From NCBI RefSeq assembly GCF_000260985.4, contig NC_017857.3:1364001-1428000 (forward strand): a DNA stretch of 64,000 bases, in the 5' to 3' direction. Below are positions 32,037-37,125 of the stretch, piece by piece. Below the pieces are notes generated by a model that did not search any database, had not been told where the DNA came from, and saw only the letters and a list, made by a program, of their open reading frames with translations. Positions within the stretch are counted from its first letter, which is position 1. Each line of letters starts with the position of its first letter. This stretch comes from Methylophaga nitratireducenticrescens (GTDB taxonomy: Bacteria; Pseudomonadota; Gammaproteobacteria; Nitrosococcales; Methylophagaceae). The position numbers were made by a program, and so were the translations under genes.

Positions 32037-32083
32037 ATAATCACAAAACAGATGGAATCATGATTGGTTTTACTTCTAAGAGA

Positions 32084-32140
32084 AGAGGGGGCGGCTTTGA
32101 AAAAAAAGAAAGAAGGTGAACGTATTTTTCAGCCCCCTCT
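32084..32140. terminator. Inverted repeat, possible terminator of the FNR-linked small gene
   Basis: A perfect 9-bp inverted repeat, AGAGGGGGC (32084-32092) and GCCCCCTCT (32132-32140), is separated by 39 A-rich bases. It lies just past the stop of the small gene at 32149. The long loop and lack of a clean T-run make a terminator role uncertain. Confidence 0.35.
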
Positions 32141-32148
32141 GAATTTCT

Positions 32149-32253
32149 TCATGACATGAATAAACCAAAAGCAACCAGTCCAATGCAAGCCAGTGAAATC
32201 ACTATTATAAAGTCAATGAAATGATCCATTAGCCATTCTTCTAATTTGTGCAT
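32149..32253 (-). CDS. Small membrane protein (34 aa) with FNR-type promoter
   Basis: The 34-codon gene encodes MHKLEEWLMDHF, then a hydrophobic helix (IIVISLACIGLVAFGLFM). AGAAGG sits eight bases before the ATG. A perfect FNR-type box centred about 81 bases upstream, with a -10-like GATAAT exactly 22 bases after the box, gives class II spacing and supports real transcription. A second gene at 32402-32509 encodes a homologue, 12 of 34 residues identical and most others similar. Function unknown; a helper subunit or regulator of a membrane enzyme under low oxygen is possible but is only inference. Confidence 0.7.
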   Translation of the reverse strand: MHKLEEWLMDHFIDFIIVISLACIGLVAFGLFMS

Positions 32254-32299
32254 GATAAACCTTCTTAGTAACGGTTATACAGAGTAAGTTGCCGTTCTT

Positions 32300-32341
32300 A
32301 TTATCATGCTACGAAGGTTAGAGGACATTGATCTGGATCAA
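32300..32341 (-). promoter_or_regulatory. FNR/Anr-dependent class II promoter
   Basis: TTGATCCAGATCAA (minus strand; 32328-32341) matches TTGAT-N4-ATCAA exactly. On the same strand GATAAT (32300-32305) follows after 22 bases, the spacing of FNR sites centred at -41.5. It reads toward the small membrane protein gene at 32253. Confidence 0.75.
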
Positions 32342-32401
32342 AGCATATCGGTGTTATATGCGTCCGCATTTTTTACGGGTTAATTAAATCAGCCGATTTT
32401 A

Positions 32402-32509
32402 TTAAGACAAATACCATCCAATTGCCACTAACCCCAGCCAGAAAAAAGTGAAAAGCAGAATGATAAGGGGAAATCGTTGCATTAAAAATTCATCAATTTT
32501 TTTTAACAT
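32402..32509 (-). CDS. Small membrane protein (35 aa), paralogue of the 32149-32253 product
   Basis: A 35-codon gene encoding MLKKIDEFLMQRF followed by one hydrophobic helix (LIILLFTFFWLGLVAIGWYL). GTGAGG precedes the ATG by about six bases. It aligns without gaps to the neighbouring 34-residue protein; shared residues include LM, F and GLVA-x-G, and both end in Ser. Conservation between two adjacent copies argues that both are real genes. No FNR box was found directly upstream of this one. Function unknown. Confidence 0.62.
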   Translation of the reverse strand: MLKKIDEFLMQRFPLIILLFTFFWLGLVAIGWYLS

Positions 32510-32612
32510 TTTTGCCTCACCTAAGATTCATTTCAATTAGTAAAGATACCACTTGCAAGCCAGATATACCAGTCGGGAAGGTGCTGTTTTTCTATGTTTT
32601 CAACGGTATTGA

Positions 32613-32789
32613 AAAGCTGTAAATAACACTTTTTGTTATGTTCTGAAAATCAGTGGAGAGTCGATGATCGGCAAAGGTATCATGTCCGGGCATTATGTGG
32701 TGGTGGAGTCAACACGGCAGGCAAAACATAGTGATATGTTTGTTGCACTGGTCGATGGTTACGATGCCACCCTCAAAACCATGCTGTGA
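32613..32789 (+). pseudogene. lexA fragment (S24 peptidase domain remnant)
   Basis: The open frame reads YVLKISGESMIGKGI, then YVVVESTRQAKHSDMFVALVD and GYDATLKTML before a stop. This is the LexA C-terminal protease core, with GESM in place of the usual GDSM around the catalytic serine. The N-terminal DNA-binding domain and the catalytic lysine end are missing and no start signal is visible. It is read as a decayed or truncated copy of a LexA/UmuD-type repressor. A complete lexA would be expected elsewhere in the genome. Confidence 0.6.
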
Positions 32790-32800
32790 ACAATCAGGAT

Positions 32801-32820
32801 GAAAGATCAACAAGCCCTAA
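32801..32820 (+). repeat. Dispersed motif GAAAGATCAACAAGCCCTAA
   Basis: A copy of the tail of the 40-nt motif seen at 17541 and 35979, located between the lexA fragment and the galU end. Confidence 0.35.
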
Positions 32821-32866
32821 TGCCAGATAATGATGACTTCGAAGCGGAATCAATGGCAAACGGATA

Positions 32867-33712
32867 TTAACCATACTGCTTATTAAAGTAATAATTGGTG
32901 GCTTCAACATAACCGGCGATGCTGCCGCAATCAAATCGATGGCCATCGAATTTGATGGCTAACACCGGTTTTTCCTGCGCCATAGCCCGGATGGCATCGG
33001 TGATTTGTATTTCGCCATTTGCACCGGGAGGAGTATTACGTAAATAATCAAAAATATCCGGTGTAAGAACATAACGACCGATAATCGCCAGATTACTGGG
33101 GGCTTCTTCGGGTTTCGGTTTCTCTACCATATCACTGATACGATATACGTTCGGTTCAAGTTCCTCCCCAGAAATTACACCATAGCTACCGGTTGCCTCG
33201 GCAGGAACTTCCTCAATCGCTACAATGGTGCATTGATGTTTTTGATAAAGTTCAACCAGCTGACCAAGTGCCCGCTTCCCACCAGATTCAGGTGCTGCGC
33301 ATAAATCATCCGCCAGTAATACCGCAAAGGGTTCATTGCCGATAATAGGTTCTCCAGTCAGTATGGCATGGCCTAATCCCAACATGGCACGCTGACGCAT
33401 AAATATAAAGTCACAGGAATCCATCACCTTACGGATATCGTCAAGGTGGGATTCTTTACTGGTTCCCTGGATTTGATGCTCCAGTTCAAAGCTGGTATCA
33501 AAGTGATCGGCAATGGCTCTTTTACCTCGTCCGGTAATAAAACCCATACTGCGCAGGCCAGCCTCCATCGCTTCTTCGACACCATATTGGATCAGCGGTT
33601 TATCAACGATAGGCAACATTTCTTTTGGCATTGCCTTGATCGCGGGCAAAAAACGTGTGCCATATCCGGCTACGGGAAATAGACATTTACGGATAGAAAC
33701 GTGTTCGGTCAT
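32867..33712 (-). CDS. galU: UTP-glucose-1-phosphate uridylyltransferase GalU, copy 1
   Basis: A 281-residue nucleotidyltransferase making UDP-glucose from UTP and glucose 1-phosphate. The N-terminal signature is FPVAGYGTRFLPAIKAMPKEMLP, followed by VEKPKPEEAPSNLAI and FDCGS. Family length is about 280-300. AAGGATT lies upstream of the ATG. A second copy at 36021 is very similar in sequence. UDP-glucose feeds the downstream galE and polysaccharide genes. Confidence 0.93.
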   Translation of the reverse strand: MTEHVSIRKCLFPVAGYGTRFLPAIKAMPKEMLPIVDKPLIQYGVEEAMEAGLRSMGFITGRGKRAIADHFDTSFELEHQIQGTSKESHLDDIRKVMDSCDFIFMRQRAMLGLGHAILTGEPIIGNEPFAVLLADDLCAAPESGGKRALGQLVELYQKHQCTIVAIEEVPAEATGSYGVISGEELEPNVYRISDMVEKPKPEEAPSNLAIIGRYVLTPDIFDYLRNTPPGANGEIQITDAIRAMAQEKPVLAIKFDGHRFDCGSIAGYVEATNYYFNKQYG

Positions 33713-36020: not shown

Positions 36021-36878
36021 TTACGCTAATTTATTCAAATGCTCATGTTCGTAATAATAGTTTGTCGCTTCAACAAAACCTTCGACGCTGCCGCAATCAA
36101 AACGACGACCTTTAAATTTAACAGCTAAAACCAGTCGATCCTTTGCCAGCAAACGCAGGGCATCGGTTATTTGAACCTCGCCATTGGTGCCGGGTTTGGT
36201 TTTTCGCAGATATTCAAAAATCTCCGGTGTCAGAATATAGCGTCCGATAATTGCCAGATTGCTGGGGGCTTCTTCAGGTTTGGGTTTTTCAACCATGTCT
36301 TTTATTTGATAAATACCCGGAGCGATTTCATCACCGGAAATGACACCATAACTATGGGTTTCATCAGCAGGGACTTCCTCAATCGCGACGATGCTGCACT
36401 GATAACGTTCATATAATGCAACCAATTGACTCAGAGCACGTTCACCGCCTTCATCCGGTTTGGCGCATAAATCGTCAGCCAGAATGACCGCAAAAGGCTC
36501 ATTGCCAATCATCGGCTCGCCTGTCAGGATGGCATGACCCAAACCTAACATTTCCCGTTGGCGCATAAATACAAATTCACAGTTATCCATCAGATAACGA
36601 ATATCGTCGAGAAATTTTTCTTTTGAGGTACCTTTAATTTGATGTTCCAGTTCGAAACTGGTGTCGAAATGATCGGCAATGGCCCGTTTACCGCGGCCGG
36701 TAATAAAACCAATTTGTGAAATACCCGCCTCCATCGCTTCTTCAACACCATATTGAATCAAAGGTTTACTGACAATTGGTAACATTTCTTTGGGCATTGC
36801 TTTTGTTGCAGGAAGAAATCGTGTGCCATAACCTGCCGCAGGGAATAAACATTTTCTTATAAGACTTTTTACAGCCAT
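36021..36878 (-). CDS. galU: UTP-glucose-1-phosphate uridylyltransferase GalU, copy 2
   Basis: A 285-residue paralogue of the enzyme at 32867, with the same FPAAGYGTRFLPATKAMPKEMLP signature, VEKPKPEEAPSNLAI and FDCGSVEG. The start chosen (MAVKSLIRKC) follows AAGGAT; a TTG start six codons earlier is open but lacks a site. It is divergent from galE. Having two near-identical galU genes 3 kb apart suggests local duplication. One copy may be dedicated to exopolysaccharide and the other to general metabolism, but the sequence cannot tell which. Confidence 0.93.
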   Translation of the reverse strand: MAVKSLIRKCLFPAAGYGTRFLPATKAMPKEMLPIVSKPLIQYGVEEAMEAGISQIGFITGRGKRAIADHFDTSFELEHQIKGTSKEKFLDDIRYLMDNCEFVFMRQREMLGLGHAILTGEPMIGNEPFAVILADDLCAKPDEGGERALSQLVALYERYQCSIVAIEEVPADETHSYGVISGDEIAPGIYQIKDMVEKPKPEEAPSNLAIIGRYILTPEIFEYLRKTKPGTNGEVQITDALRLLAKDRLVLAVKFKGRRFDCGSVEGFVEATNYYYEHEHLNKLA

Positions 36879-37125
36879 TGACGAGATCCTTATCAAACTG
36901 TTGTGGAAAAAAGAGATGCCGTTAAGCTAAAGTAATTGGCTGTGAAGTTCAACAACTCCGCAGTCAAACAAATTAGATTAAGTCATCATTGGATGACGAA
37001 ATGATAAACATTAAACATGACTATTTAATTTCGCCCGGGAACTCATTCAATTTATAATCGGGTTAAGAAGCCTCGAATTTAGCTCAGAAGGTTTTCAATG
37101 GAGTTGTGTGAAATAAGGGATAAAA

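Follow-up and report, generated by a model that had tools for sequence, protein, structure and literature searches.

Two paralogous single-helix membrane proteins of Methylophagaceae with differing predicted oxygen regulation

Two small genes and their surroundings

Two short genes, referred to here as A and B, lie on the minus strand of the window, which is the whole stretch of 64,000 nucleotides that was analysed and belongs to the Methylophaga nitratireducenticrescens genome (one contig of 3.135 Mb). A published narK primer for M. nitratireducenticrescens JAM1 (PMC11526790) has an exact match in this genome. The features mapped at the locus are:

32082..32142, minus strand: long G+C-rich hairpin directly 3' of the stop codon of A (stem kept in the centroid structure)
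32149..32253, minus strand: gene A, predicted 34-aa single-helix membrane protein, MHKLEEWLMDHFIDFIIVISLACIGLVAFGLFMS (family conservation, dN/dS, AlphaFold helix)
32260..32266, minus strand: ribosome-binding site of A, AAGAAGG (orthologues are purine-rich at the equivalent site)
32300..32305, minus strand: -10 element of A, GATAAT, starting exactly 22 nt past the FNR box (alignment of 27 loci)
32328..32341, minus strand: FNR box of A, TTGATCCAGATCAA, class II position, centred at -41.5 (exact in the window, conserved in orthologues)
32402..32509, minus strand: gene B, 35-aa paralogue of A, MLKKIDEFLMQRFPLIILLFTFFWLGLVAIGWYLS (family conservation, dN/dS, profile-profile probability of 99.3%, AlphaFold helix)
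32515..32522, minus strand: ribosome-binding site of B, AGGTGAGG, purine-rich (from the sequence)
32543..32551, minus strand: extended -10 promoter element of B, TGGTATCTT (conserved in B orthologues)

An earlier note, made from the letters of the window, had described two short minus-strand genes with alignable products (12 of 34 residues identical), each preceded by a ribosome site. Both open reading frames were recovered here, at 34 and 35 codons, with 35% identity over 34 positions and a purine-rich site before each (AAGAAGG for A, AGGTGAGG for B). The final serine that the same note gave as a shared trait is common among the orthologues, but it is not invariant. Both frames are under purifying selection, with a dN/dS of ~0.03-0.1. 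When the window is compared with its three closest relatives, dN for A is ~0.07-0.08 and dS ~0.9-1.2 (dN/dS ~0.07-0.1), and the values for B are similar. The substitutions in A fall mostly at third codon positions (4/0/13, 2/0/16 and 3/1/13 by codon position in the three comparisons), and those in B are likewise concentrated there. The genes, their selection, paralogy, promoters and conservation are thus established at the level of the sequence. We infer translation and membrane insertion for both products.

The neighbours of A and B vary by lineage and include PpsR/ppsA, a DNA_alkylation-type repeat protein, an rlmD-like gene, lexA, galU and SulP. No operon partner was found among them, and A was not seen to be transcribed together with a gene downstream, the neighbour differing by lineage. 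The hairpin at 32082..32142 is probably the 3' end or terminator of A. Its U-rich loop of ~20-30 nt is unlike the usual terminator layout, and a search after A for the T-run terminator pattern found none. Between B and galU, a lexA remnant with an internal stop was observed at 32637-32843 on the plus strand (72% identical over 69 aa); close relatives carry an intact lexA at the equivalent place. Two galU-type paralogues, at 32867-33712 and 36021-36896 on the minus strand, cluster together, lie ~2.3 kb apart and open an exopolysaccharide-looking region.

Distribution and paralogy of the family

Of the 57 Methylophagaceae genomes, searches of the tblastn type detected A in 44 and B in 45, and a joint A/B profile found one or both genes in 44. 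Homologues with a conserved frame, whose lack the earlier note had named as a refutation and which it had proposed to look for by this kind of search, were thus present in 44 of the 57 family genomes, and its claim stands up to this check. The two genes usually form a pair ~280 nt apart, with constant order and strand. In the genome G034 they are ~1 Mb apart, which indicates that each gene stands alone. Among the genomes that carry ccoN and have no pair, a contig end lies beside the syntenic site in four of nine; an apparent loss in G038 (Methylophaga muralis), G020, G045 and G011 was rejected on this ground.

Relatives of A and B were absent from six genomes that represent the sister family within the order, and no true relative was found outside the family in even samples of ~365-369 genomes of the class and ~397-398 of the phylum; with ~770 proteobacterial genomes sampled in this way, rare relatives may exist elsewhere. 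The weak matches outside the family are only partial. The best of them, in G766 (locus L194, E 7e-5), was discarded as a chance match, since a suitable open reading frame is missing there and rnf genes adjoin it. A plasmid search gave no match. The statement that no family could be recognised holds in Pfam, NCBIfam, PHROGs and PDB, where no significant family match was obtained, and a literature search found no paper describing these proteins.

A profile-profile comparison of the A and B orthologues gave 99.3% probability across all 34 positions. Both share the pattern M-x-K-L-E-x(6)-F-x(3)-I-x(6)-W-x(2)-L-V-x(2)-G-L, and F12 and G30 are invariant in the family alignment. A protein tree of the 34 columns, which is poorly resolved, sets A apart from B, with the exception of two B rows that nest within A; either the duplication predates the greater part of the family or partial homogenisation of the copies has occurred. 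Judged from these alignments, A and B are an ancient paralogous pair that arose by an old duplication confined to Methylophagaceae. They form a genuine family, undescribed so far and restricted to this lineage, in which single-helix proteins come in pairs whose two members differ in their predicted oxygen regulation.

Promoters of A and B

FNR class II promoters have the site TTGATN4ATCAA centred at -41.5, together with a -10 element; the promoter of A has this form by sequence and differs from it in nothing. The perfect TTGAT-N4-ATCAA box with GATAAT at the -41.5 spacing, as first read from the window, was confirmed, and a box stands at the matching site in 32 of 36 distinct orthologues (at most one mismatch, 73-94 nt before the start of A, 19 of them perfect). 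The -10 element also begins 22 nt past the box in the aligned set of A orthologues, which is class II geometry, and has A at position 2 and T at position 6 in 26 of 27 aligned loci. TTGATN4ATCAA occurs 26 times in the 3.135 Mb genome, against a single site for the reversed control pattern, so that the box before A is not a chance occurrence. Several of these sites are intergenic and precede anaerobic-type genes, for example those for a class III ribonucleotide reductase, a NarX-type sensor and a U32-family protein (products named by eye). The FNR of this genome is of the oxygen-sensing type; it scores 246 bits, above the curated cut-off, and has an N-terminal C-x2-C-x5-C motif and an ETVSR recognition helix. 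Directly 3' of the fnr gene itself lies another perfect FNR box (L166:3268-3281, window genome 315267-315280). By sequence, A is predicted to be FNR-controlled across the whole family. That A and B are real genes and that A is under FNR control we regard as highly probable.

The promoter of B is of another type. An extended -10 element of the form TGnTAnnnT was mapped 35-75 nt before B in 32 of 33 orthologues, against 1.4 expected from shuffles, and before A in only 3 of 36. A sigma-54 promoter for B (TGGCAT...TGC) was considered and rejected, as the spacing does not fit and, in seven loci, the TGGCA forms the last letters of the SulP gene. No FNR box was found upstream of B in the window, nor in 30 of the 33 B orthologues. 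In the other three (G007, G008 and G019; loci L015, L059 and L082), a box with no or one mismatch is placed at -37/-38 of B, immediately past its -10 element. FNR bound there would block transcription, and these boxes are apparently the gain of a repressor site.

The two genes had been taken together as an oxygen-responsive pair. For A this stands by sequence, given the FNR box in 32 of 36 orthologues; B is not generally oxygen-induced, having a conserved FNR-independent promoter (32/33), to which three relatives add an FNR site in a repressing position. The promoter and site of B point instead to two oxygen-switched isoforms, and this is a better reading than a pair in which both members are induced when oxygen is low. 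A and B are most likely two forms of a single small membrane protein, A for low oxygen and B by default, and a fall in oxygen probably makes the cell exchange B for A. Reciprocal control of A and B in one sub-lineage is a prediction from the promoter sequences.

Candidate partners and relation to known systems

AlphaFold models of the single chains give one continuous helix for each protein (pLDDT 94 for A, 93 for B). The conservation moment of the transmembrane segment peaks at 100 degrees (p ~0.0002 for A, ~0.002 for B). The conserved positions are on one face of the helix, which suggests contact with a protein, and the helices may thus pack against a protein partner; a single conserved face would equally fit any helical partner, or self-association.

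Across the 57 family genomes, the pair co-occurs with ccoN, the gene that marks a cbb3 cytochrome c oxidase. Each of the 44 genomes with the pair has ccoN; the pair occurs in 44 of the 53 genomes with ccoN and in none of the four without it, namely G018, G027, G029 and G030 (Fisher p 0.0018, or 0.016 on the high-quality genomes). FNR co-occurs with the pair as well (p 0.005), and no link was seen for cydA (p 0.75). A reduced genome of 1.1 Mb, G003, has an fnr pseudogene with 11 stops and a degenerate FNR box before A, and has kept A and ccoN, which favours a respiratory partner over a role bound to the FNR regulon. The decayed fnr (L078 and G003:C6:289745-290347) is in step with the degenerate box at the single A-type gene of this genome. 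Several points weigh against cbb3. The four genomes without ccoN also lack other family genes, and one or two loss events may account for them, so that the co-occurrence is suggestive only. There is no physical or operon link of the pair to the cco genes; ccoN of the window genome is 56 kb from the pair, a distance accounted for by general synteny, and the ccoNOQP operon already encodes CcoQ. This operon carries an FNR box with one mismatch. Besides the complete ccoNOQP, the window genome has an orphan ccoN with no ccoO or ccoP behind it (L180:3921-5354, window genome 1646920-1648353).

We propose that B would be transcribed from a constitutive sigma-70 promoter and that, when oxygen drops, FNR would occupy the class II site of A and recruit RNA polymerase, so that A is made. 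In one sub-lineage, FNR would additionally repress B, and A would replace it. Through their conserved face, the two proteins would pack on one inner-membrane complex as exchangeable accessory subunits, B at normal and A at low oxygen, tuning its stability or activity. The complex contacted would most likely be the cbb3 cytochrome c oxidase. We infer the FNR response, the partner and its tuning in this scheme. Taken as a whole, the statement that A and B are oxygen-exchanged accessory subunits with cbb3 as their partner is tentative, and we rate it as a possibility short of an expectation. The fuller claim, that cbb3 has two interchangeable tiny subunits of a new family, a normal- and a low-oxygen isoform swapped by FNR, is on balance rather unlikely. 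The suggestion that the pair modulates a respiratory or transport complex is partly supported, its respiratory side being consistent with the cbb3 co-occurrence.

The pair could also be oxygen-switched isoforms serving complex I, bc1, an aa3-type oxidase or an assembly factor, as neither the regulation of A and B nor the conserved face singles out cbb3 and the ccoN test carries little weight when shared ancestry is allowed for. We find this unlikely, as the pair is missing from G027, G029 and G030, which apparently have an aa3-type oxidase only (their ccoN matches are weak), and bd oxidase is unlinked to it. A transporter is an improbable partner. The most plausible candidate would be the SulP-type anion permease (PF00916) directly upstream of B. 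Of 21 loci examined, 7 have it next to the pair on the same strand, and as these span all four genera the adjacency looks ancestral; however, B has a promoter of its own past the SulP stop codon, and most of the examined loci, the window included, have the pair with no SulP adjoining.

Action with no fixed partner must be weighed against these readings. E. coli YohP is proposed to act generally on the membrane, with no one fixed partner (PMC12719787). A and B could be free-standing stress proteins of this kind, lowering respiration or acting on curvature or lipids. A matches this class in length, in hydrophobicity and in its predicted induction under stress (PMC12719787), and a partner gene linked to A and B is absent. 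We consider this fairly improbable, if a little less so than the permease, since the conserved face, the invariant F12 and G30 and the conservation in 44 genomes suggest a specific contact, and B is constitutive. Tandem type I toxin peptides would likewise be short hydrophobic paralogues, and one stray match to PepG1 (E 0.33) was obtained; no other type I toxin model matched. This explanation is very improbable, given that each genome has a single orthologous pair and no scatter of copies, and given strong purifying selection and a dedicated FNR promoter, transcript structure no greater than that of shuffles (z -0.5), and no plasmid copies found.

Small membrane proteins are easily overlooked by annotation, and several of them, once found, proved to be oxidase subunits. 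Among the known systems closest to the proposed isoform pair is CcoM. A and B resemble this accessory subunit of the Pseudomonas stutzeri cbb3 oxidase (5DJQ, chain N) in size, in a single transmembrane helix, in genes placed outside the cco operon and in a link to low-oxygen life. CcoM has 36 aa and is important in low oxygen (PMC10433244). It is a single gene, whereas A and B would be an oxygen-switched pair. Homology was rejected for lack of sequence or profile similarity (profile probability 0.3%, with a CcoM-like sequence as query, which matches chain 5djq_N at E 1e-14). CcoQ/FixQ is a small single-helix cbb3 component, as is proposed for A and B; the window genome carries the gene for it within the cco operon, and A and B do not match it. 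CydX and CydH (YnhF) of E. coli cytochrome bd are single-helix small subunits of a terminal oxidase and alike in type, and YnhF was known as a small protein earlier than its complex. It was recognised late as a bd subunit (PMC9264385). Unlike a CydX-type small subunit, for which A and B were considered and rejected, they have no Pfam or other family-model match to it and do not co-occur with bd oxidase (cydA, p 0.75).

Methylophagaceae are marine methylotrophs with an important part in methanol oxidation and in denitrification. The family studied here offers a built-in experiment, with two paralogues under different predicted oxygen regulation kept across it. Paralogous small subunits of a terminal oxidase that are exchanged by oxygen are the yeast COX5a/COX5b and the mammalian COX4-1/COX4-2. 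The oxygen-dependent exchange proposed for A and B is alike; these subunits are eukaryotic, and their sequences and regulators are unrelated to those of A and B. If the partner is cbb3, bacteria would also exchange oxidase subunit isoforms with oxygen, which to our knowledge was previously known only from eukaryotes, and cbb3 subunits swapped by FNR would, if the proposal is true, parallel in bacteria the switch between COX5a and COX5b that oxygen regulates in yeast.
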